From Candidatus Omnitrophota bacterium (lineage in GTDB: Bacteria > Ratteibacteria > UBA8468 > B48-G9 > JAFGKM01), in the NCBI GenBank assembly GCA_023819375.1, contig JAMWDI010000001.1:171685-235684 (forward strand): DNA of 64,000 bases, written 5' to 3'. Positions 39,807 through 52,675 of this stretch are shown piece after piece (within the stretch, counting starts at the first letter, position 1; the number at the start of each line of letters is the position of its first letter). The position numbers were made by a program, and so were the translations under genes. The notes beneath the pieces are model-generated. The model had not been told where the DNA came from. It worked only from the letters and a program-made list of their open reading frames with translations, and did not search any database.

Positions 39807-40067
39807 TTATTCTGGAATAACTTTATATACCGTATCGCCTTCTCTTACATGTTCAATTACTTTTAAACCTATTTCATCTCCAGGAAAAGCAACTTCTATT
39901 TCTTTGTGTTCTTTTTGCATGGACTCAACTTTTTGGTTCAAATCAGTTGTATGGCCTTTAATATGTATTTCATCACCTTTTTTAAGTTCCCCATTTGTTA
40001 TTTTTATTGCTGCAACACTAATTTTTGTGTAATAATGAGTAACCTTTCCTATTTCAATCTCTTTCAT
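39807..40067 (-). CDS. Translation elongation factor-like small protein (EF-Tu domain II-type beta barrel)
   Basis: [56 protein letters not shown] upstream of the chosen ATG. Confidence 0.72.
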
Positions 40068-40114
40068 AATTTTCACCTCCTTCAAACTTTTATTTTATAT
40101 TTTAACATAAAATT

Positions 40115-41458
40115 TTAATTATTTCTTTTCAAACCATATTTCTGAATTTTATATCTCAAAATCCTTCTCGTTGTTTTCAAAATTTCTGCTGCTTTTGTTT
40201 GATTCCAATTTGCTTTTTTAAGAGCATCTTCTATTAATTTTTTTTCAAAATTTTCAACCTCTTCTTTAAAACTCCTAAAAATTCTTTTTCTAACTCTTAA
40301 CTCTTCTGGTAGATCATCCAACTCAATTATAACTTTTTCACTGTTTAAAACAAAAATTCTTTCAATAATATTTTTCAATTCTCTCACATTCCCAGGCCAG
40401 TCATATTCAAGAAATGCCTCTTTTGCCTCCTGACTGAAGTCTTGAATCTTACTGTTAAATTTCATTTTAAAAAATTTTATATAGTATTGAAGAAGTGGGA
40501 TTATATCTTCTTTTCTTTCTTTTAAGGGTGGAATTTCAATAGGAATAACACTTAATCTATAAAATAAATCTTCTCTAAATTTCCCCTTTCCTATTTCTTC
40601 TTTCAGATTTTTTGACGTTGCAGAAATAACTCTTGCATTACTTTCAATAAGTTCATTACTTCCAAGAGGAGAAAATTTTTTTTCTTCCAAAAATCTAAGT
40701 AATTTCACTTGTATACTTAATGGTATTTCCCCAACCTCATCAAAAAATAAAGTTCCTGAACCAGCAATTTCAATTTTTCCTTTTTTGCTTTTGAAAGCAT
40801 TCGTAAAAGCACCCTTTTCATAACCAAAAATTTCACTTTCAAAAAGTGTTTCTGGAATTGCTGCACAATGGATAGAAACAAAAGGTTGATCTCTCCTTGG
40901 GCCTGTTTCATGTATAAATCTTGCAATTAACTCCTTACCAACACCAGTAGGTCCTGTAATTAAAATAGGGCTATCTGTAAAAGCAATTTTTTCTGCAATT
41001 TTTATTATCTCAGCCATTATTTTACTTTTATAAACAATAGTATCAAGTGGATACTCTGTTTTTATTTCCTCTTTCAAAAACTCTATATGTGTAATCAAAT
41101 TTTTTGTCTTAAGTGTTTTTTCAATGGTTAAAACCAGTTCTTCTATATTGAAAGGTTTAGTTATATAGTCAACTGCTCCCATTTTTATTGCTTCAACTGC
41201 TGTTTTTATTTGTGAAACTGCGGTAAGCATAATAACCGAAATATTTTTAAATTTATCCCTTATTTCTTTAAGCAGTGCAATTCCATTAGTATCTGGTAAA
41301 AGAATATCAAGAATTACAACATCAGGTAATTCTTTTTCAATAATTGCTAAACCTTCTTTCCCAGTTGAAGAAACAAAAACTTTATATCTATTTTTTAAAA
41401 CAAATCTCAGTGATTCTCGAACTCCCTGTTCATCATCTATTACAAGTATTTTATTCAT
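40115..41458 (-). CDS. Sigma-54-dependent response regulator (NtrC family: receiver, AAA+, Fis HTH)
   Basis: Receiver ILVIDDEQGVRESL...VVILDILLPDTNG...VIMLTA...TKPF; GPTGVGKELIARFIH; GYEKGAFTNAFKSKKG; Fis-type HTH NQTKAAEILKTTRRILRYKI. Confidence 0.95.
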   Translation of the reverse strand: MNKILVIDDEQGVRESLRFVLKNRYKVFVSSTGKEGLAIIEKELPDVVILDILLPDTNGIALLKEIRDKFKNISVIMLTAVSQIKTAVEAIKMGAVDYITKPFNIEELVLTIEKTLKTKNLITHIEFLKEEIKTEYPLDTIVYKSKIMAEIIKIAEKIAFTDSPILITGPTGVGKELIARFIHETGPRRDQPFVSIHCAAIPETLFESEIFGYEKGAFTNAFKSKKGKIEIAGSGTLFFDEVGEIPLSIQVKLLRFLEEKKFSPLGSNELIESNARVISATSKNLKEEIGKGKFREDLFYRLSVIPIEIPPLKERKEDIIPLLQYYIKFFKMKFNSKIQDFSQEAKEAFLEYDWPGNVRELKNIIERIFVLNSEKVIIELDDLPEELRVRKRIFRSFKEEVENFEKKLIEDALKKANWNQTKAAEILKTTRRILRYKIQKYGLKRNN

Positions 41459-43355
41459 TTTTCAAAGGTAATTTAATTATAAAATTCTTACCTGACGGCA
41501 AAGATTCAATTTTAAAAAATCCTTCATGAGTTTCTATAATTTTTTTTGCCACTAGTATTTTTGTAATAAGAACTGTATTCAATTTTGAAAAAAATGGTAC
41601 AGAAATATCATCTTTTTCTAAAATTATATTGTTTCCACTTTCATTTATTGTAATTATAACTTCAAAATTTGACTCTTCAATATCTATAAATATTTTTTCA
41701 TCGAGTCCTTTTATGTCTTCTTCAATAAATTCAAAAATAAAATCAATTGCTTCTTTCAATTTCAATATATCAACTTCAACATTCCCGCTTCTAAATTTTT
41801 GTTTTCTTATTTCCACTTTTTTGTCTTTTATTAATTCATTTATCAAATCTTCACATTTTAAAATTTCTTTCTCTAAAATAAACTCCTTTCCAATTCTTCC
41901 AATACTCTCAATTATTTCATTTATTCTTTTGATTTCATCAAGCACTATCTTTGAAAATTCTTCTCTAAATTCTCTATCTTCATACATTATTGGTAACATT
42001 TGTGCAAAGGTATTTATAGCAACAAGAGGATTTTTTAACTCGTGGGACAACTTTGAAGCAACAAGTCCCCAGTATTTATTCTTTTCTATTTCTTTTTCTC
42101 TTTTTTCTATTTCTTTAATTTTTGTTAAATCTTGAAAAATTGCTACAACACCCAAAATATTTCCATTTTCATCGTCAATTATATTTGTACTCATTCCAAG
42201 AATTGACTTCGTTGGTATAAATTCAAATTCTTTTCTTGTAAAAGTTTCACCATATAATATTGCTCTTCTTATTAAATCTGCAATTTGAGAACCAATTTTT
42301 TCAATTTTTTCTCCTTTCAACTCTTCAAACTTAACTTTTAATATCCTCTCAGCAAATTCATTCATAATGTTAATTCTCCCTTCTTTATCAACTCCTATTA
42401 TTCCAGTAGGAAGATTTTTAAAAATAAATTCTTGATATCTCTTCTGATTTTCTATCTCTTTGTAAAGATAAAAATTATCAAAAACAACCGAAAGGTAATC
42501 AGTAATAGTAGAAAGAAACAATATTTCATCACTTTTTATTTCTTCATCCAATTCCTTTTCTCCAATAGTTAAAAATCCCACAAGTTTCCCTTTAAAAGTC
42601 CTTAAAGGGAAGATAATTTTACATTTAATCAAAGACAAAAAACTCTTAAAATTAACTCCTATTTCTATGCTATCAAACTTCAAAATTTTCCCCTTTTTCA
42701 TAAGATATTCTATAACAGGATCTTCCTCCTTCAATTCCAATTCATTAATAAGTTCTTCTTCCATACCATAAGAAGAAGCAATTTTAAAAGAGTGACCTTC
42801 TTTCAAAAAAATAGCAAGATGGTTATAGTGAAAATATCTTCTCAATATCTTCAAAATTTCAAAACAAGTCTTCTTAGTATCAAAGAAATTTTCAGCAATA
42901 CATTGAAAAACCATCCTAAAAATTCCATCTTTAAAATTTTCTTCAGAATTGTTATGTTTTTCACTTTTTGCAAAATTGATATCTATTTTTTTTCTTTGCA
43001 ATTTTTCAAATAACTTTTCTGCATTTTTAACCACGTAATGAATTTTCTCAACAAGTAATGATTTTTCAATAACTTCAAAGATGTCTCTCTGAAGAATTTC
43101 TCTTGTGCTTTTATCATATGTTGAAACCAAAGGAACAATAAGGATTTCATTATTTATAGAAAGAATCTCCTCTATTAATTCTACAGGATTTGTCTCATTT
43201 AAAGTAGTATCAATAAAAACTAAAAATGGTTCCCTTTCTTTTACTTTCCTAATCGCCTGTGAAGAACTAGTTGTTTCAACAAGATAATCTTTTAAAAGAA
43301 TTTTTATTGATTGTGAAATTGATAAATTGTCACTTATAACCATCAAATATTTCAT
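41451..43355 (-). CDS. Receiver-like/GAF/PAS protein with histidine-kinase H-box but degenerate ATPase domain
   Basis: N-term receiver-like (ISDN..FIDTTL..LVST..IEKS), PAS region (FKNLPTGIIGVDKEGRINIMNEFAERIL), H-box SKLSHELKNPLVAINTF; no recognisable N, G1 or G2 boxes. Confidence 0.82.
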   Translation of the reverse strand: MKYLMVISDNLSISQSIKILLKDYLVETTSSSQAIRKVKEREPFLVFIDTTLNETNPVELIEEILSINNEILIVPLVSTYDKSTREILQRDIFEVIEKSLLVEKIHYVVKNAEKLFEKLQRKKIDINFAKSEKHNNSEENFKDGIFRMVFQCIAENFFDTKKTCFEILKILRRYFHYNHLAIFLKEGHSFKIASSYGMEEELINELELKEEDPVIEYLMKKGKILKFDSIEIGVNFKSFLSLIKCKIIFPLRTFKGKLVGFLTIGEKELDEEIKSDEILFLSTITDYLSVVFDNFYLYKEIENQKRYQEFIFKNLPTGIIGVDKEGRINIMNEFAERILKVKFEELKGEKIEKIGSQIADLIRRAILYGETFTRKEFEFIPTKSILGMSTNIIDDENGNILGVVAIFQDLTKIKEIEKREKEIEKNKYWGLVASKLSHELKNPLVAINTFAQMLPIMYEDREFREEFSKIVLDEIKRINEIIESIGRIGKEFILEKEILKCEDLINELIKDKKVEIRKQKFRSGNVEVDILKLKEAIDFIFEFIEEDIKGLDEKIFIDIEESNFEVIITINESGNNIILEKDDISVPFFSKLNTVLITKILVAKKIIETHEGFFKIESLPSGKNFIIKLPLKNE

Positions 43356-45822
43356 TTTTTAATTCCTCTTTTTTAAAGATTGGAAATTTTATATAAACTT
43401 TTGTGCCTTTATTTTCTTCACTTTCTACATAAACTTTTCCACCATGCTCCTCTACAATTCTCGTAACAATTGAAAGTCCAAGTCCAGTCCCTTTATCTTT
43501 AGTTGTAAAAAATGGGTCAAAAATTTTGTCAATAATTTCTTTCTTTATACCTTTTCCATTATCTTCTATACATATTTCCGCATTATCATTCTTTATTTCT
43601 AAACTCACTACAATCACACCTTTTTCATTTTCAATTGCATCATAACTATTAGTAAGAATATTGAAAAAAACTTCTTTCAATTTTTCTCTATCTCCTTTAA
43701 TTATAATATTACTTTCTGGATAATTTTCAAAAATCTTTATATTTTTATTTTGGCATTGAAATCTCCACAAAATTAAGGTCGTCTTAAGCATTTCAATCAA
43801 ATTTATTTCTTCTATTTTTAATGGCTTTGGATTAGCAAATAGCAAAATCTGCTCAATCAGATGATTTATGCGTCTTACCTCATCTTGTAAAAGTTTGGAA
43901 TAAACATCTCTAAACTCTTTGTCATGATACCTTTCCGGAAAAAGATCTATAAATGTTTTAATAGCAACAAGTGGATTTTTTATTTCATGTGCAACTCCTG
44001 CAGCCATAACTCCAAGTGAAGCAAATTTTTCTTTTTCCTTTATTTCTTCTTGTAATTTTTTAATTTCTGTAATATCAGAAAAAATTGTTATTACCCCTCT
44101 TTTTTTATTATATTCATCTATAAAAGGAACCACAATTTCACGAAAAACATAATTTTTGTTATTCTTTTTGAGAATTATTTCTTCACTTAAAATTTCATTA
44201 TTAAGATTTTCAAACTTTTTTTCAATTAATGGAATTGTTTCAACAGGTAAAACTTTTTTATAATTCTTACCTATCAAATTTTCTTTTTTTATCTCAAAAA
44301 ATAATTCTATTTGTTTATTTGCAAACGCAACGTTCCCTTCTTCATTAAAACTTATAACACCAAAGGGCGAATTATCAAGTAAACTTTTAATATAAAGATT
44401 AGTAGATATAATTTCATGATAAAGTTTAATATTCTCTATTGCAATTCCTATTTGATATCCAAGATTTAAAAGCAACAATTGGTCTCTATATGAAAAAACT
44501 GAACCATCAATTTTCTGTTTTAAGAAAAGAAGACCCTTAACATGACCCTTTTCAATAATGCCTATTACAACGTCATATCCAATTTTATTAAAATCCTCTA
44601 CTATTTTTTCTTTTTCTGGATAAATTTTACTCATTCTTTCCTCTTCCTCTTTTATAATAATTTTTGATTTTTCAATTTCTTTCCAAAAAATAGTATCTTT
44701 GTCAAACGTTAACTTTATGCAAGATGGAAGATTTTCAGTTGTATATGGAAATTCATCTTTTTCTTTGAATAGTAATAAAACATCCTTTGGTATATTTAAA
44801 AAATTAGATAAAACTTCAACAAGATTTTCAAAAATTTCTTTGGGATTTGAAAAAGTAAATAGAACCTCAAAAATTTTTTTGGTAAACATTTCAATATCAT
44901 ATTTCAGAAATTTTAATCTTAAAACTTTTCTAAATTTTTCTTTTAAGGGATTATAAACTACTGCAACAATGAAACCACTAACAAAAATTGGCCAATTTTT
45001 AGGATGAATTCCAAAGAAAGATAAAAAAGATGTAATGATTTTAAAAGATATATAATAAATAGAAAAAAGAATAGAGAATAAGACTACATAAAGAGTAATT
45101 ATTTCATAAACAAAGGCAACATCCATTATTTTGTATTTTGCAATTCCATAAATTATAATTGAAGATATTATAGCAGAAGCGAAAGGAGATAATCTATCTG
45201 TAATAGATAAATCTATAAATAAAAGAGGAAGAAGGCCTAAAAAAATAGTAAATAATGTGCCAAATAAAACAGCAAGAAAAACATAATAAATTTCCAGTGC
45301 AATTATTCCCTTTTTTTCTTTCTTTTTTTTATATAAGTGTGCCAAACTATAACATAAAATGATCGCGATATTTATTGTATAAATAGAAATTTCTAATTTT
45401 CCATATTTCACCATGGGACCGCTTTTAATATTTTGAATATTTTGAAGGATACATTCACGTATAAAACCTGGAGAAAAAGATACTAAAACATTTATTAAAC
45501 TTAAAATATAAAAAAATAAAATACTTCTCAGTTTGTCCTTTGGAAATTTTTTTTCCCCTATGGAAAAAGCAAATATTGAAAATGTTGGAGGTAAAAAGGT
45601 AGAAAAAGCAAAAATAGTTCTCACAAAAAATTCTCCAACTTTCGCATCAGTTATAGATGCAGTTAAGAATCCAATAAAAGTCCACACTGATAGTTGTAAC
45701 GAAAAAAGTGAATAAATTTTATTTGAAAGTTTTCTTTTACTTTTTAAATAGAGAAATATCCCTAAAGAGAGATTTAAAATACTAACAATTAAAAAAGCAA
45801 TAGAAAGATTATTGATCACCAT
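43330..45822 (-). CDS. Membrane histidine kinase (N-terminal multi-TM sensor, GAF, PAS, HisKA, HATPase)
   Basis: H-box AAGVAHEIKNPLVAIKTF, N-box FFNILTNSYDAI, G1 IEDNGKGI, F-box FDPFFTTK, G2 GTGLGLSIV. Confidence 0.95.
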   Translation of the reverse strand: MVINNLSIAFLIVSILNLSLGIFLYLKSKRKLSNKIYSLFSLQLSVWTFIGFLTASITDAKVGEFFVRTIFAFSTFLPPTFSIFAFSIGEKKFPKDKLRSILFFYILSLINVLVSFSPGFIRECILQNIQNIKSGPMVKYGKLEISIYTINIAIILCYSLAHLYKKKKEKKGIIALEIYYVFLAVLFGTLFTIFLGLLPLLFIDLSITDRLSPFASAIISSIIIYGIAKYKIMDVAFVYEIITLYVVLFSILFSIYYISFKIITSFLSFFGIHPKNWPIFVSGFIVAVVYNPLKEKFRKVLRLKFLKYDIEMFTKKIFEVLFTFSNPKEIFENLVEVLSNFLNIPKDVLLLFKEKDEFPYTTENLPSCIKLTFDKDTIFWKEIEKSKIIIKEEEERMSKIYPEKEKIVEDFNKIGYDVVIGIIEKGHVKGLLFLKQKIDGSVFSYRDQLLLLNLGYQIGIAIENIKLYHEIISTNLYIKSLLDNSPFGVISFNEEGNVAFANKQIELFFEIKKENLIGKNYKKVLPVETIPLIEKKFENLNNEILSEEIILKKNNKNYVFREIVVPFIDEYNKKRGVITIFSDITEIKKLQEEIKEKEKFASLGVMAAGVAHEIKNPLVAIKTFIDLFPERYHDKEFRDVYSKLLQDEVRRINHLIEQILLFANPKPLKIEEINLIEMLKTTLILWRFQCQNKNIKIFENYPESNIIIKGDREKLKEVFFNILTNSYDAIENEKGVIVVSLEIKNDNAEICIEDNGKGIKKEIIDKIFDPFFTTKDKGTGLGLSIVTRIVEEHGGKVYVESEENKGTKVYIKFPIFKKEELKNEIFDGYK

Positions 45823-47041
45823 ATTTTTTAATGATTAATGAAGAATTACTCCCACCAAGCCCATGAGAATTTATTAAACAATATTCTACCTCACATTTTC
45901 TATGCTCGTTAGGAACATAATCTAAATCACATAAGGGATCGGGATATTCATAATTTATTGTTGGAGAAATTATATTTTGCTCAAATGCCAAAATGGCAGC
46001 AACTAACTGCAGAACCCCTGCTACCCCCAAAGGGTTTCCAATCATTGATTTAATAGAGGTAACTGGAATCTTATAAGCTTTTTCCTCAAAAATCTTTTTT
46101 ATTACTTTAGTCTCAATATAATCAAGAAAAGGATCTGATGGTGCATGAGCAGAAATAAGGTCAATTTTTGAAGGTAAAATACCTGCATTTTGGATACTTT
46201 TTTTCATTGCTTCCTCAAATCCTTTTTCTATTATATTTTCTTCTGCACTTTGTCCATATCCTAATATTTCACAATAAATATGAGTTTTCCTCAAAAGAGC
46301 AGAATTTAATTCCTCTAACACAACAAAACCTGCACCTTCGGATAAAACACCACCATCTCTCATTTTGTCAAATGGCTTACTGATTTTTTCCGGTTGGTCA
46401 TTCTTTAAACTAAGCATTTTCGCTGAAATAAATCCTTCTATTAGCAAAGGTGTTATCGGGGCTTCAGCACCGCCAGCAATAGCAATATCAATGTTCCCTT
46501 CTTTGATTTCTTTAAAAGCAAGTCCTATGCTATATAAGCCACTGGTACACCCTGTTGAAATAGTACAAATATTACACTCACTTATATTTAATTCGTTAAT
46601 TATTTCACTTATTCCAGCACTTGGAGCCCCTGAAGGAATAAAATATGGACTAATACTTTTATGTTTTCCTTTTATAAATTTTAAATGTTCTTTTTCAATT
46701 AAATCCATGGCACTTGTGCTAACTCCCAATGAAATTAAAATTTTCTGAGTATCAATTTTTTTTAAGTCAAGACAGGCATCTTCAATTGCCATTTTAGCAC
46801 AACTTACAGCAAATTGGGAAAATCTTGCCATTCTTTTTATTTTTTTCTTATCCTCTATATAATCTTCTGGCCTGAAATCTGTAACTTCACCTGCAATTTT
46901 TACAGGTAATTCAGTTGTATCAAAAGAAGTTATTTTCTTAATACCACTTTTCCCTTCTTTTAGGGCTTTCCAAAAATTTTCTTTTCCTATTCCATTAGGT
47001 GCTATTACTCCAATCCCAGTAATTACAACTCTCCTGTCCAT
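45809..47041 (-). CDS. Beta-ketoacyl-ACP synthase (KAS I/II, FabF-like) with predicted Cys-His-Asn active site
   Basis: RRVVITGIGVIAPNGIGKENFW, STGCTSGLYSIG (Cys), SAHAPSDPFLDYIE (His), KSMIGNPLGVAG (Asn in place of His). Confidence 0.92.
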   Translation of the reverse strand: MDRRVVITGIGVIAPNGIGKENFWKALKEGKSGIKKITSFDTTELPVKIAGEVTDFRPEDYIEDKKKIKRMARFSQFAVSCAKMAIEDACLDLKKIDTQKILISLGVSTSAMDLIEKEHLKFIKGKHKSISPYFIPSGAPSAGISEIINELNISECNICTISTGCTSGLYSIGLAFKEIKEGNIDIAIAGGAEAPITPLLIEGFISAKMLSLKNDQPEKISKPFDKMRDGGVLSEGAGFVVLEELNSALLRKTHIYCEILGYGQSAEENIIEKGFEEAMKKSIQNAGILPSKIDLISAHAPSDPFLDYIETKVIKKIFEEKAYKIPVTSIKSMIGNPLGVAGVLQLVAAILAFEQNIISPTINYEYPDPLCDLDYVPNEHRKCEVEYCLINSHGLGGSNSSLIIKKYGDQ

Positions 47042-47044
47042 CTT

Positions 47045-48664
47045 TCAAAATTTTTTATTTATCCCTCCTATTTCTTCATATAATTTTTTACTATTACCTG
47101 AATAAAAATAAACTCTGTTATTTTTCAAAAAATCTTCAATTTTTTCAAAATCTGAATATCTGTAAAGCAGGTATGCATCATCTGAAATAGAAACTTCAAT
47201 CCCTAAACTTTTTATTTCCTTCTGAAATTCTTCTGTTTTTCGTGCAAATTCTTTAAAAGACATACCATTTACTTTATAAGGAAGTGGTTGCCACATTGTT
47301 GGAGGAAACAGGGCTTTAATTTTGTAATTCATTATTTTCAAAGGATATGTTTCTTTTTCTAATTTAAAATTAAAACGTTCTGGAAATTTAAACCAGACAG
47401 TTCCAGGATAAATTCCTGGAAATTGTACTAACACAGAATCAGGATAAATTTCTTTCAAAAAATTAATAGTTTCTTCTTTTGTTTTTTCTGTTTCAAATGG
47501 AGCAGGATAAATTAAACTTATTATTGTAAAAATCCCTGCATCTTTACACCTTTTCAAAACTTTTTTCATATCATCTTTCTTAACATTTTTATTCATCCAT
47601 TTTTTCAATATTTCTTCATTTGCTGTTTCTACTCCAAAAAAAAGTGCTTCACACCCAGATTTTTTAAGCAAGTTAAAGTCTATATTCAAAAAATCATTTG
47701 GCTGAGCAAAACTTGTGTAGGAAACTTTAATTCCTTCTTTTAAAATTTTCTCTGCAATTCCTACAATTAAATCTCCAGGAGTGCTTGAACCTGCAAATCT
47801 AAAAAGTTTAATTCCATATTTGTTATTATAAAATTTCATTTCTTCTATTATTCTTTCAACAGATTTTTCTCTCCTTTTGCCACTTTTTTTGGGATGAATA
47901 CAAAAATAACACGAATTAGGACATCCTCTGCTTTCGTCAAGAACAATCATTTTTATTCTTTCTTCTATTTTCCAGTATATATCAACGTCATAAAGTGGAA
48001 TAGGAATAGAATCTAAATTTTCTATATATTTTCTTTCAGTTTTAATAACTTTCCCATTTTCTTTAAATATAAGATTTGGAATATCTTTTAATTTTTTTTG
48101 GCCTTTTACAAATTTGACCAATTCAATAATTGTCTCTTCCCCTTCTCCATAACATAAAGCATCAAAAAAATCCCCTTTCTCAAATATCCAGTGTTCAAAA
48201 ATGTCTACCTGGGGACCACCACCAAAAATTTTCAGTTCAGGCTTCTTCTTTTTTAAGTATTTTCCAATTTCCATAGACCAATCAAAACCATCTCCTGCCC
48301 ATAGTTTAAATCCAACAAAATCTACTTTTTCATCTTCTATAATCTTTAACAAGTAATTTTTCAGTCTTTCAAGATAAAATCTTTTATTATTCTCTATATA
48401 TTTTGAAACTCTTTTTAATTTCAAAACATCTAAAAAAGATGGTCTTTTATTTTGAATAAATATTTTGTAAGCAAATTTCTCAAGAAAATCCTTAATTTCA
48501 TTTGTATATACTTCGTCAAAAACAGAAGGAAGATTAAAATCTAAAATTTTTACTTTTACATTTTCTTTTAAAAGACATGTTGCCAAAGAAGCAAGACCAT
48601 TATCAGGGACGAAATCTGATAAAATTCTTGGTATGCCAACAATTGAAATTAAAAGTCCTTTCAT
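47045..48664 (-). CDS. B12-binding-domain radical SAM protein
   Basis: KIFGGGPQVDIFEHW, DALCYGEGEETIIELVKF, DESRGCPNSCYFCIHPKKSGK (CxxxCxxC), FFGVETANEEILKKWMNKN; start set at Met22 of the ORF (KGLLISIVG), an upstream ATG at 48727 also possible. Confidence 0.87.
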   Translation of the reverse strand: MKGLLISIVGIPRILSDFVPDNGLASLATCLLKENVKVKILDFNLPSVFDEVYTNEIKDFLEKFAYKIFIQNKRPSFLDVLKLKRVSKYIENNKRFYLERLKNYLLKIIEDEKVDFVGFKLWAGDGFDWSMEIGKYLKKKKPELKIFGGGPQVDIFEHWIFEKGDFFDALCYGEGEETIIELVKFVKGQKKLKDIPNLIFKENGKVIKTERKYIENLDSIPIPLYDVDIYWKIEERIKMIVLDESRGCPNSCYFCIHPKKSGKRREKSVERIIEEMKFYNNKYGIKLFRFAGSSTPGDLIVGIAEKILKEGIKVSYTSFAQPNDFLNIDFNLLKKSGCEALFFGVETANEEILKKWMNKNVKKDDMKKVLKRCKDAGIFTIISLIYPAPFETEKTKEETINFLKEIYPDSVLVQFPGIYPGTVWFKFPERFNFKLEKETYPLKIMNYKIKALFPPTMWQPLPYKVNGMSFKEFARKTEEFQKEIKSLGIEVSISDDAYLLYRYSDFEKIEDFLKNNRVYFYSGNSKKLYEEIGGINKKF

Positions 48665-48710
48665 ACAAAAAAATATTATATAATATGAAAGAATTCTTGC
48701 AAATTTTTTT

Positions 48711-48726
48711 TGGCACAAATTTTGCA
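48711..48726 (+). promoter_or_regulatory. Sigma-54 (-24/-12) promoter
   Basis: TGGCAC-AAATT-TTGCA matches consensus TGGCAC-N5-TTGCW with exact spacing; intergenic, about 54 bp before the response regulator ATG. Confidence 0.85.
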
Positions 48727-48779
48727 TATATCCTTTTTAAGGAGAATTTTGAAACAAATTTACAAAAAGGAGAAAAAAC

Positions 48780-49853
48780 ATGAAAAAAGAGGATCAAAAA
48801 GAAAGATATACTATTCTTATTATTGATGACGAAATTGGTCCAAGAGAATCTTTAAGAATATTATTTAAAAACAAATATGACGTAATTACTGCTGAAAATG
48901 GATTTAAAGGATTAGAAATTCTTAAATCACAAAAGGTTGATATTGTAATTCTTGATTTGAAAATGCCACAGAAAAATGGGATAGAAGTTTTATCAGAAAT
49001 AAGGCAGATTAACAAAAATGTTCCTGTAATAATCTTAACTGGATATGGAGATATGGAATCTGCTAAAAAAGCAATGCAATATGATATTGTGGGCTTTGTA
49101 AGTAAGCCATTTGAGATAATAGAAATTGAAGAATTAGTTGAGAATGGGATAGAAAAAGGGAAAGTGAAAATTAAAATAGGTGAAATAAAAGAAAAAATAT
49201 TAAATTTAAAGGAAAAAATTAAAGAGAAAGAAGAGGAGATTAAAAAACTTTTTGAAACCCATAAAATTACAGAAGAAAATTTAAAAGAAATAAAAAAATC
49301 ATTAGAAGTTGTTCAAAATTATGCAGAATCAATATTCAAAGAATTATCTTCTGAAACTCAACAATTTTCACTTAAAGAATTACTTAAAACTGAAGAAGAA
49401 ATTGAAACTTGTTTTTCTATTATAGAAAATATTATTGAACTATCTATTGAAAAAGAGTTTGAGGAAATAGACGTAAATAAATTGATTGAAAACATAGTAA
49501 GTTTATTAAAAATTTTTACAGAAAAACAAAATATAGAATTTGAAACACTTTTTTCCAAACAACCTTTAAAAATAAAAGGTAATTTTTACCAATTAAATAC
49601 AAGTATCATTTCCCTTCTTTTAGAATATATTCGAGAACTTAAAAATGTGAAACAAGTGATAATTGAAACCTCTAAAACAGATGATAGTGCAAAAATAAAA
49701 TTCAAACTAAAAACTGAAGAGGAAGAAATTTCTGAAAAAAATTATTTTTTAGAAATGATGGAAGAAGTAGTAAAAAGATATCATGGAAAATTGGAAATTA
49801 CTACAAATATTGAAAAAGAAATTCACATTTCAATAATTTTTCCTATCTCTTAA
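48780..49853 (+). CDS. Response regulator receiver fused to degenerate histidine-kinase-like domain
   Basis: Intact receiver TILIIDDEIGPRESL...VVILDLKMPQKNG-type...VIILTGYG...SKPF; C-term resembles HATPase secondary-structure pattern (VNKLIENIVSLLKIFTEKQNIEFE...VVKRYHGKLEITTNIEKEIHISIIFP) without N/G boxes; RBS AAAGGAG. Confidence 0.85.
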   Translation: MKKEDQKERYTILIIDDEIGPRESLRILFKNKYDVITAENGFKGLEILKSQKVDIVILDLKMPQKNGIEVLSEIRQINKNVPVIILTGYGDMESAKKAMQYDIVGFVSKPFEIIEIEELVENGIEKGKVKIKIGEIKEKILNLKEKIKEKEEEIKKLFETHKITEENLKEIKKSLEVVQNYAESIFKELSSETQQFSLKELLKTEEEIETCFSIIENIIELSIEKEFEEIDVNKLIENIVSLLKIFTEKQNIEFETLFSKQPLKIKGNFYQLNTSIISLLLEYIRELKNVKQVIIETSKTDDSAKIKFKLKTEEEEISEKNYFLEMMEEVVKRYHGKLEITTNIEKEIHISIIFPIS

Positions 49854-51053
49854 ATATGAATTTAAAATTTTCAACTGATTTCTATATTTATTTACAGTTC
49901 TTCTTGAAATTTTAATGCCCATATATCCTAATTTCAATGCAATTTCTTTATCGGTTAAGGGATCTTTTTCATTTTCGATAATTTCTTTAATTTTTTTCAT
50001 AATAAACTGCTTACTGTAATAATGTTTAAATTCTGGTGTAAATAAATCTTTTATTTTCAGAAGGCCGACAGGAGATAGTAGATATTTTCCATTTATAGCC
50101 CTGCTAATAGTTGAAATACTTACATTCATTTTTTCAGCAATATCTTTTTCTTTCAAAGGTAATAAGTCACCAGTTTCAAAAAATTCACTTTGATAATTTA
50201 TTATTTCTTCAAAAACTTTTTCCAGAAATTTTTTTCTTTTTTCAATCATTTCAATTATCAATTTTACTTTTTTGATCTTATCCTCAAAAAATTTTTTTTC
50301 TTTTGCAGAGAGAAAGGGAAAATTTACATACTTCTCATAATCTGTTTCTATTTTTATATATGAAGAAATTTTGTCATCTAAATAAACTTTAAATTTACCA
50401 TCAATTTTTTCTATTCTACCTTCAGGTATAATTCTTTTAATGATTTTTCTTTTATCACTAATTGGATATGGGTTTAATTTTTTTAATTTTTCAAAAGCAA
50501 ACTTCACATCTTCTTCACTTATTCCCATTTTATTACTGATTTCTTTAAAATTCTTTTTTATAAGTATATCCCAATACTTATCAACCATTTCATCTAAAAT
50601 CCAATCTTTATGATATCTTCTAATTTGAATTAAAAAACATTCTTTCAAGTTTCGCGCTCCTACCCCTGCTGGTTCCAAGGATTGAACAATTTTTAAAGTT
50701 TTTTCAACCTCTTCAATATCTACTTTCAAAATTTCTGCGACTTCCTTTAACTCCATCTTTAAATAACCATTTTCTTCAAGATTCATAATTATAAACTCTG
50801 CTATTTTTTCCATTTTTTCAGGAATATCCATCAGTTTAATTTGTTCCATTAATTCTTCTGTAAAAGGGATTTCTAATGGAATTTCATTAAAGTCAATATT
50901 TCCATAATTAAATTGTAAAAAAGGATTTTCTTCTGATTCCTTTTTTAAAAATTCTATAAGAGTATAAAGAGGAAAAGCAATAAATTTTGAAAATTGTATT
51001 TGCAATTGTAAAAGTTGTGGTTTAATTTTAAGTTCAAATTTTCTACTTTCCAT
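49830..51053 (-). CDS. rpoN: RNA polymerase sigma-54 factor
   Basis: LQSLEPAGVGARNLKECFLIQI, KEKDIAEKMNVSISTISRAINGKYLLSPVGLLKIKDLF, RpoN-box-like KISRRTVNKYRNQL. Confidence 0.95.
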   Translation of the reverse strand: MESRKFELKIKPQLLQLQIQFSKFIAFPLYTLIEFLKKESEENPFLQFNYGNIDFNEIPLEIPFTEELMEQIKLMDIPEKMEKIAEFIIMNLEENGYLKMELKEVAEILKVDIEEVEKTLKIVQSLEPAGVGARNLKECFLIQIRRYHKDWILDEMVDKYWDILIKKNFKEISNKMGISEEDVKFAFEKLKKLNPYPISDKRKIIKRIIPEGRIEKIDGKFKVYLDDKISSYIKIETDYEKYVNFPFLSAKEKKFFEDKIKKVKLIIEMIEKRKKFLEKVFEEIINYQSEFFETGDLLPLKEKDIAEKMNVSISTISRAINGKYLLSPVGLLKIKDLFTPEFKHYYSKQFIMKKIKEIIENEKDPLTDKEIALKLGYMGIKISRRTVNKYRNQLKILNSYLRDRKNY

Positions 51054-51121
51054 ATAATTTAGTATTATTTTACTATTTCTTCAAAGAATAGTGTATAATA
51101 AAATAAAAAAGGAATTTGACG

Positions 51122-51919
51122 ATGATAATCTCAATAATTGTGGTTGGTTGTCTTGGTTTATTTTTTGGAATTTTTTTAACTATTATTTATTCAAAATTTA
51201 AAACAGAAGAAAATCCTTTTTTTTCTAAAATTTACTCTCTTTTACCTAAAGCAAATTGTGGAGGATGTGGTTTTGCAGGATGTAATGATTTTGCTGAAAA
51301 TTTAATAGATGGTAAAACAACTCCTGAAAGATGTGTTATGTTAAATGAAGAATCTATCATAGAAGTATGTAATTTATTAGGAATTAAAAATGAAAGAAGA
51401 GAAAGAAATATTGCTAGAATTTGTTGTTATGGTGGAGATAATGCAAAAAAGAAATTTGAATATACAAGTTTTAGAACCTGCTCTGCTGTAAATGCAATTT
51501 TTGAAACAAATCTTGAATGTCCCTATGGATGTATTGGCTTTGGTGACTGTATCAGAATTTGTCCTGTAAATGCTATTAGTTTGAATGAAAAGAATATACC
51601 TGAAATTAATGAAGAAATTTGTATTGGATGTGGCAAATGTATTGAAATATGTCCTAAAAAAATAATAAAATTAATACCCTCAAATAAGAAAGTATATGTT
51701 GCCTGTTCTTCAAAAGATAAAGGAGCAGTTGTTGTTAAAATATGTCAATCTGGTTGTATTGGATGCGGTAAATGCTCTAAGAGCTGTCCTCAAAATGCTA
51801 TAAAAATTGAAGATAACCTTGCCATAATTGATTATGAGAAATGTAATAATTGCGGTAAATGTGTGGAAGAATGTCCGAGAAAAATAATCTTTATTTCAAA
51901 AATTTCAATTCTAGCATAA
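51122..51919 (+). CDS. rnfB: RnfB-like Fe-S electron transport protein
   Basis: N-terminal TM; LLPKANCGGCGFAGCNDFAENL 4Fe-4S motif; multiple CxxCxxCxxxCP ferredoxin motifs; ATG at 51122 preferred to the TTG at 51116. Confidence 0.88.
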   Translation: MIISIIVVGCLGLFFGIFLTIIYSKFKTEENPFFSKIYSLLPKANCGGCGFAGCNDFAENLIDGKTTPERCVMLNEESIIEVCNLLGIKNERRERNIARICCYGGDNAKKKFEYTSFRTCSAVNAIFETNLECPYGCIGFGDCIRICPVNAISLNEKNIPEINEEICIGCGKCIEICPKKIIKLIPSNKKVYVACSSKDKGAVVVKICQSGCIGCGKCSKSCPQNAIKIEDNLAIIDYEKCNNCGKCVEECPRKIIFISKISILA

Positions 51920-52675
51920 ATGGAAGAGAAAAATTTCAAAATTATTGTTTCTTTTGCAGGTAAGGATTATTATGGATGGCAAAAACAAAAAGACAAAAAT
52001 ACTGTTCAGGAAAAAATAGAAAAAGCCCTTCAAGAAATATTTAAATTTAATGTCAAAGTAAATGGATGTGGCAGAACAGACAGTAAGGCTCATGGAATTA
52101 ATTATGTAGCCAACTTTAAAGTTAAAACAAGATTAAAACCTGAAAATATTAAAAATGCTTTAAATTCAAAATTACCTTCTTCTATCTATGTAAAAGATGT
52201 TATTGAAGTTCCACCTGAGTTCCATGCAAGATATTCAGCAAAAAGGAAGATTTATAGATATATAATTTCACTTCAAAAAACCCCATTCCTTGAAGATTTT
52301 GCCTATTATTTAAAAGAAAAGGTTGATATTGAAAAAATGAAAGAAATATCAAAACTTTTCATCGGAAAACATGATTTTAAATCATTTCAATCTTCTGGAA
52401 GTAACATAAAAAATACAGTAAGAGAAATCTATAATATTGATATTAAAAAAGAAAAATTTTTTCTTGATGAAGATGTTGAATTAATTATAATTGATATTGA
52501 AGGTAGTGGCTTTTTATATAAAATGGTAAGGAATATGATAGGGACTCTAATTTATGCTGGAACAGGTAAAATTGAAATAGAAAAAGTTAAAGAAATTATT
52601 GAAAAAAAAGATAGAAAATTAGCCCCCCCTCCTGTTCCAGCAAAAGGTTTATTTTTCAAATATGCAAAATACTGA
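51920..52675 (+). CDS. truA: tRNA pseudouridine synthase A
   Basis: FAGKDYYGWQKQKDKNTVQEKIEKAL, GCGRTDSKAHGINYVANF, GSGFLYKMVRNMIGTLIYAG. Confidence 0.96.
   Translation: MEEKNFKIIVSFAGKDYYGWQKQKDKNTVQEKIEKALQEIFKFNVKVNGCGRTDSKAHGINYVANFKVKTRLKPENIKNALNSKLPSSIYVKDVIEVPPEFHARYSAKRKIYRYIISLQKTPFLEDFAYYLKEKVDIEKMKEISKLFIGKHDFKSFQSSGSNIKNTVREIYNIDIKKEKFFLDEDVELIIIDIEGSGFLYKMVRNMIGTLIYAGTGKIEIEKVKEIIEKKDRKLAPPPVPAKGLFFKYAKY

Follow-up and report, generated by a model that had tools for sequence, protein, structure and literature searches.

Why should a gene for a fatty-acid-building enzyme lie in the middle of a two-component signalling operon? The question is raised by a locus of Candidatus Omnitrophota bacterium on contig JAMWDI010000001.1 (positions 171,685 to 235,684; this whole stretch of 64,000 nucleotides is hereafter called the window). 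An island in the window encodes, in this order, a B12-binding radical S-adenosylmethionine (SAM) protein (rSAM), a FabF-like ketoacyl synthase (KAS), two histidine kinases (HK1 and HK2) and an NtrC-type sigma-54 activator (NtrC). A receiver (REC) domain fused to a histidine kinase (REC-HK) is encoded divergently behind a sigma-54 promoter, and rpoN, the sigma-54 gene, follows convergently. All evidence for the circuit described here comes from comparison of sequences. The answer that we prefer, tentatively and at somewhat less than an even chance, is that the operon encodes a two-component signalling system around a repurposed fatty-acid enzyme, in which an acyl-derived cue would be passed to a one-promoter sigma-54 circuit and to cyclic di-GMP (c-di-GMP).

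Gene order within the order and across phyla

Neighbourhoods were inspected around the KAS gene. Where contigs were readable, nearly all genomes from the genus, family and order of the window genome showed the arrangement rSAM-KAS-HK1; its near relatives are labelled Candidatus Omnitrophota. The full set, with rpoN convergent to REC-HK, REC-HK divergent from rSAM-KAS-HK1-HK2-NtrC and the mreB operon beyond, occurs in other families (loci L110, L112, L113 and L116), and two further loci (L035 and L037) have the same set as far as a contig end.

A profile of HK2 run over 386 genomes gave further tandem HK1-HK2 pairs, whose neighbourhoods were inspected likewise. The KAS-HK1-HK2 core recurs in Bacillota (Candidatus Desulfopertinax), Nitrospinota and several other families. 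In Candidatus Desulfopertinax (L076) it is followed by a gene for a REC-HD-GYP protein, and in the Nitrospinota genome (L047, G121) the genes are split over two contigs, one carrying KAS and HK1, the other HK2 and REC-HK. The order is rSAM-KAS-HK1-HK2-REC.HDGYP-FadL in G285 and G148 (in the latter from KAS onward, at a contig end) and rSAM-KAS-HK1-HK2-REC.HDGYP with a REC-HK or kinase gene in G049 and G196 (G335 has the same from KAS onward). KAS-HK1-HK2-REC.HK is followed by an MMPL exporter gene in G058 and G205, G310 has rSAM-KAS-HK1 and NtrC, and G061 (Aerophobetes) has KAS-HK1-HK2-REC.HDGYP-HK-NtrC. With FadL at the operon end in G285/G148 and the MMPL exporter in G058/G205, hydrophobic-compound transport recurs beside the operon.

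Because the order recurs in nearly every readable-contig relative, the adjacency of these genes is not incidental and goes beyond chance. Grouping of unrelated genes by accident, for which one could cite the rSAM relative of G242 that lies apart from KAS and kinases, is refuted by the survey and keeps a negligible probability: the same order is found in several families and phyla although identity among the KAS proteins is only about 45-55%. The first-pass annotation of this DNA had proposed that KAS and rSAM are part of the signalling pathway, and had named a neighbourhood survey as the check. Co-occurrence was clearly kept across several lineages and the two genes were not dispersed over unrelated loci in the relatives surveyed, so that the proposal gains partial support. 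No relevant paper on this gene combination or on sigma-54 in Omnitrophota was found in the open-licence literature, which is weak evidence of absence.

Relatives carry two genes that are absent from the window, one for FadL/OMPP1 (PF03349), which lies immediately upstream of REC-HK and is transcribed away from rSAM, and one for a REC-GAF-HD-GYP protein directly after NtrC. Genomes of the order have no more than one FadL gene, which adjoins the sigma-54 promoter or the island. A search of the entire window genome gave no member of the FadL family, and in G001 a different gene occupies the expected FadL position. The window species has lost the FadL and HD-GYP genes and, with a degenerate REC-HK as well, its circuit has decayed.

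Active site and phylogeny of the kinase-linked KAS

In alignments the window KAS retains Cys165 and His299, and its second catalytic His is replaced by Asn336. Residues (FabF numbering from PMC7138838) were counted in 29 kinase-linked sequences, namely the tree clade described below plus L041 and L062, minus one partial sequence and with G061 not included. The nucleophilic Cys is present in 29/29 of these and in 77/77 ordinary FabF sequences, whereas the second His (FabF His340 position) occurs in 0/29 versus 77/77; Asn (22), Gln (5) or Ile (2) takes its place. The first catalytic His is kept in 26/29. The resulting triads are CHN, CHQ, CNI and CFQ, with C-H-N in every KAS of the Omnitrophota order, Desulfopertinax, G285/G148 and Nitrospinota. 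Basic residues of the helix that docks acyl carrier protein (ACP) are mostly kept, the SFGFGG loop is altered relative to FabF, and the window KAS scores 408.4 bits against the NCBIfam fabF equivalog, below the cut-off of 493.75.

In a quick tree of 71 KAS sequences, built by maximum likelihood (SH-aLRT supports, no bootstrap), 28 of the 29 kinase-adjacent sequences fell into one clade (SH-aLRT 95) spanning Omnitrophota, Bacillota and Nitrospinota. Nearest to the clade are L041, next to a seven-transmembrane (7TM) kinase gene, and L062, which adjoins NtrC. The L041 KAS (L041:8001-9242) has Phe for the first catalytic His and Gln for the second; the 7TM kinase gene lies directly after it, and genes for an ICMT-like methyltransferase and a FIST-domain sensor are near.

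Two other identities for the island KAS were rejected. It is not the housekeeping FabF: genomes with an island KAS also encode an ordinary FabF at another locus, which in the window genome is a fab operon (L131) with fabH/fabD/fabG/acpP-like genes beside it, and the island KAS falls outside that group in the tree. Nor is it a chain-length factor, the active-site Cys being present in 29/29.

Because the second catalytic His is lost, the kinase-linked KAS is probably not a normal condensing enzyme. The residue pattern suggests that thioester formation, and not a complete condensing site, is the conserved feature. Acyl transfer would then be the remaining activity, by analogy with KS0 domains that lack the catalytic His and for which acyl-chain transfer has been proposed (PMC9582728). 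It seems very improbable to us that the KAS is instead a true Cys-His-Asn condensing enzyme that makes a beta-keto-acyl or resorcinol/pyrone-like signal for HK1, in the manner of DarB- and CqsA-type signals for their receptors. A Cys-His-Asn triad does condense in FabH-type priming synthases, where Asn is standard at this position (PMC12664062), and the C-H-N forms listed above would agree with it. However, sister forms have Gln or Ile, two of them without both His, and by fold family the KAS belongs with FabF and not with FabH.

The KAS might also be the sensor itself. Acyl-ACP would then dock on it, the loading of its Cys would follow fatty-acid status, and one of the two forms, acylated or not, would bind HK1 or the atypical REC domain of HK2. 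Kinase activity would be set in this way, and with it the import of exogenous lipid by FadL, without a diffusible ligand. An invariant Cys with both His variable points to conservation of acyl loading, not condensation; KAS-HK1-HK2 is kept where rSAM is absent; and catalytically dead RpfF signals in Xylella, RpfF being able to bind a REC domain (PMC4504480). We nevertheless hold this explanation to be doubtful, since it leaves rSAM without a role although most operons begin with this gene and it occurs at near one copy per genome, and since the 7TM domain of HK1 suggests a membrane or extracellular ligand.

The radical SAM protein

The domains of rSAM (B12-binding PF02310 and radical SAM PF04055, with CX3CX2C) fit the methylcobalamin class of radical SAM enzymes, a class assigned from domains. 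A profile search found members in 29/386 genomes, one gene each (two matches in G024 are contig-end fragments). The gene is in the operon in all of them except G242, G290 and G370, and CX3CX2C is kept in all except G310. Weak NCBIfam matches include B12-radical SAM lipid methylases and cyclases (HpnJ, TIGR04072).

Such matches, together with the mreB operon adjoining in most relatives and the FadL and MMPL neighbours, would suit a role of the two enzymes in building a structural lipid or a polyketide-like component of the envelope. Envelope state would then be regulated or responded to by the kinases and FadL, with KAS and rSAM as regulated cargo. We consider this unlikely: the operon has a single KAS without dedicated ACP, ketoreductase or thioesterase, the condensing residues are lost, and the sigma-54 promoter faces FadL/REC-HK and not the enzyme operon.

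The kinases and REC-HK

In the alignment the H, N and G boxes of HK1 are intact, and its sensor domain is of the HisKA_7TM type. Pfam found neither REC nor histidine phosphotransfer (HPt) domain in HK1, and a GAF domain was called only in relatives L076 and L124. HK2 keeps the phosphoacceptor His438 (SHELKNP), and its ATP-binding domain is degenerate in the order to which the window genome belongs; Pfam matched a weak REC, a PAS and a HisKA domain in the window HK2 and no HATPase. A HATPase is present in HK2 of G285, and GAF was called only in relatives L076 and L144. On the simplest reading of these features HK2 would be a partner or relay kinase. Some HK2 proteins carry a C-terminal Fis-type helix-turn-helix (HTH), called as HTH_8 by Pfam in one case (G285, L144:8145-10538) and HTH-like by eye in another (G034, L123:1325-3580). 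In the L123 and L144 genomes, where HK2 has its own DNA-binding tail, the operon has no NtrC gene.

The kinase part of REC-HK is degenerate in the window and its motifs are intact in relatives. The AlphaFold model (mean pLDDT 80) gave Foldseek matches to REC-HK hybrids, the best being LvrB (8vc9), with a low overall TM-score owing to domain arrangement. The division into one intact and two degenerate kinases in the first-pass annotation is partly lineage-specific, given the relatives' REC-HK motifs and the HK2 HATPase of other lineages.

The sigma-54 circuit

The window genome has a single rpoN, whose product scores 288.9 bits against TIGR02395 (cut-off 277.35), with a weakly matched AID domain and the RpoN box SRRTVNKYR. 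The island NtrC is the only true bacterial enhancer-binding protein and the only strong PF00158 match in the genome; the other matches are weak, most of them in long Clp-like AAA proteins (judged by length). Its motifs read GPTGVGKE, LFFDEV and GAFTNA, the last replacing GAFTGA in NtrC of most of the lineage. The equivalent NorR variant G266N (GAFT(N)A) is functional and constitutive and still opens sigma-54 complexes (PMC2941729).

Promoters were assigned by consensus match and position. The divergent promoter that had been noticed at first pass is an exact element (TGGCACAAATTTTGCA) of the GG-N10-GC form that sits 53 bp before the REC-HK start; TGGCACN5TTGCW has no other exact match in the genome of 1.73 Mb. 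With up to one mismatch allowed there are 54 sites, nearly all inside open reading frames (ORFs), and only the island site is both exact and before a start in non-coding DNA (rSAM start set at 48664). A larger sigma-54 regulon in the window genome was rejected on these 54 sites. One site with a single mismatch (L255:1205-1220; G000:C9:156244-156259) falls within an ORF, some 130 bp ahead of a prepilin-like gene, and is a possible second target.

For relatives a match was called exact with C or T at base six (TGGCAY), and 16 genomes were testable, being rpoN-bearing, or G001, where the contig ends first, and readable in this region. The promoter stands before FadL/REC-HK in 16/16 (14 exact including the window genome; G021 and G022 with one mismatch) versus 0/4 genomes without rpoN (G008, G010, G012 and G013, from two sister genera and with a readable FadL region). 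Neither rpoN nor a strong activator was found in these four, which still have KAS-HK1-HK2-REC.HDGYP-FadL where readable. Loss of rpoN, NtrC and promoter in the two sister genera was probably one event; therefore 16/16 versus 0/4 does not amount to 20 independent data. The whole sigma-54 system of the window genome appears to be devoted to the single island promoter. This goes beyond the first-pass annotation, as do the missing second catalytic His of the KAS and the loss of FadL and REC-HD-GYP in the window species.

Proposed mechanism

In the two-component system that we propose, the Cys of the KAS would accept the acyl group of an acyl-ACP and the enzyme, for want of a normal condensing site, would act in acyl transfer and not as a chain extender. 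Together with rSAM, where present, it may create or modify a hydrophobic acyl-derived ligand. Sensing of this ligand by the 7TM kinase HK1 would lead to autophosphorylation, and HK2, as relay partner, could be phosphorylated in trans by HK1 or tune it. NtrC would then act on one sigma-54 promoter driving FadL, a hydrophobic-compound channel, and REC-HK, and in most relatives the output would also reach REC-HD-GYP acting on c-di-GMP.

Several points weigh against this mechanism. An rSAM-made ligand is not universal, because rSAM is not beside KAS in G058, G205, L076, L047 and G061, and the G310 homologue at the same operon position (L158:4568-6319) has lost CX3CX2C. The KAS of G061 (Aerophobetes) is unrelated, lies outside the clade and keeps both His. 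Asn-form KAS could still extend chains, given the FabH-type Cys-His-Asn triad, and FadL could be a mere output instead of serving in ligand handling.

With slightly more reserve than for the operon itself, we suggest a class of signalling systems, shared across phyla, in which a KAS without condensing chemistry would be the acyl-loading sensor or signal maker for a 7TM kinase pair, and the entire sigma-54 machinery of a genome would serve one fatty-acid-channel promoter. If true, this would give bacteria a new way to monitor their fatty acids or lipids, via a lipid-building enzyme converted for signalling. The Cys, the lost His and the one promoter offer a clear handle on organisms for which metagenomes are mostly the only source. 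The locus would also be a clean natural case of a sigma-54 system cut down to a single activator and a single promoter, the whole circuit being lost in sister genera.

Layout of the locus

The coordinates of the five minus-strand genes, the divergent REC-HK and the convergent rpoN (Table 1) agree with the first description of the locus, as do the tight junctions, and Pfam and NCBIfam searches returned the domains assigned there. A 3-bp gap separates rSAM and KAS, and the following genes overlap by 14 bp (KAS/HK1), 26 bp (HK1/HK2) and 8 bp (HK2/NtrC); the convergent REC-HK and rpoN genes overlap by 24 bp. The rSAM ATG is at 48664, within a longer ORF beginning at 48727.

Table 1. Features of the signalling island, in window coordinates
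Feature	Position	Strand	Basis
rSAM (B12-binding radical SAM), operon gene 1	47045-48664	-	Pfam PF02310 + PF04055; CX3CX2C
KAS (FabF-like, kinase-associated)	45809-47041	-	Pfam/NCBIfam ketoacyl-synt N/C; alignments, residue counts, tree
HK1 sensor kinase, 7TM-GAF-like-PAS-HisKA-HATPase	43330-45822	-	Pfam HisKA_7TM, PAS, HisKA, HATPase_c; alignment
HK2, atypical REC-(GAF-like)-PAS-HisKA	41451-43355	-	Pfam, alignment, profile search
NtrC-type sigma-54 activator, REC + Sigma54_activat (AAA+) + HTH_8	40115-41458	-	Pfam
Sigma-54 -24/-12 promoter TGGCACAAATTTTGCA	48711-48726	+	exact TGGCAC-N5-TTGCA
REC-HK (REC-dHK), kinase part degenerate	48780-49853	+	Pfam REC only; alignment; AlphaFold/Foldseek
rpoN (sigma-54)	49830-51053	-	Pfam Sigma54 AID/CBD/DBD; TIGR02395 above cut-off

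Between the signalling operon and mreB, positions 39807-40085 (minus strand) encode a 92-aa EF-Tu domain-2-like protein with weak resemblance to tRNA-binding Pbp11; it is kept at the same place in several same-family genomes. In the region 46000-52000 the cumulative GC skew comes to its minimum, near 48-50 kb and inside the island, where gene orientation switches from mostly minus to plus, a possible replication or transcription switch point.

Comparison with known systems

Among enzymes, the island KAS is closest to FabF (KAS II), with which it has in common the fold, the nucleophilic Cys, the Lys and the greater part of the basic patch for ACP docking. It differs in the absence of the second catalytic His, the altered SFGFGG loop, a score below the fabF cut-off and its separate clade. 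In Vibrio, LuxM-LuxN and CqsA-CqsS feed LuxO, so that a synthase and a multi-transmembrane kinase act on an NtrC-type sigma-54 activator, as would be the case in the island. However, no LuxM or CqsA homologue was seen and no LuxU-like HPt was found in the island, and the island target is a protein gene (FadL/REC-HK). Non-elongating KS0 ketosynthases resemble the island KAS in the missing catalytic His and the proposed acyl transfer, but the island KAS stands alone in a kinase operon and not in a polyketide synthase module. LvrB of Leptospira, the best structural match of REC-HK, likewise has REC fused to a histidine kinase, whereas the window protein has a degenerate kinase part and a FadL/sigma-54 context. 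Chlamydia also has a sigma-54 with a dedicated NtrC-type activator, CtcC (PMC7482065), but its regulon comprises many genes, as against one recognisable promoter in the window genome.

In diffusible signal factor (DSF) sensing, RpfC signals to the HD-GYP regulator RpfG and RpfF binds the REC domain of RpfC (PMC4504480), and DSF activity and response are FadL-dependent in Salmonella (PMC7504960). The likeness lies in a fatty-acid enzyme gene beside a multi-transmembrane kinase and, in relatives, REC-HD-GYP, and in FadL, which in some bacteria has been linked to the uptake or activity of DSF. An RpfG-type REC-HD-GYP gene beside the kinase is present in most relatives and absent from the window island. 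The enzyme itself is different, a KAS and not a crotonase, with no crotonase domain in any island protein. HK1 lacks the architecture of RpfC (no REC, no HPt), and a 7TM-PAS kinase is paired with a second atypical kinase, with no HPt found. The output of the island would run through sigma-54 and NtrC. The island is therefore like DSF/Rpf in its apparent logic and not homologous to it, an analogy and not a membership.

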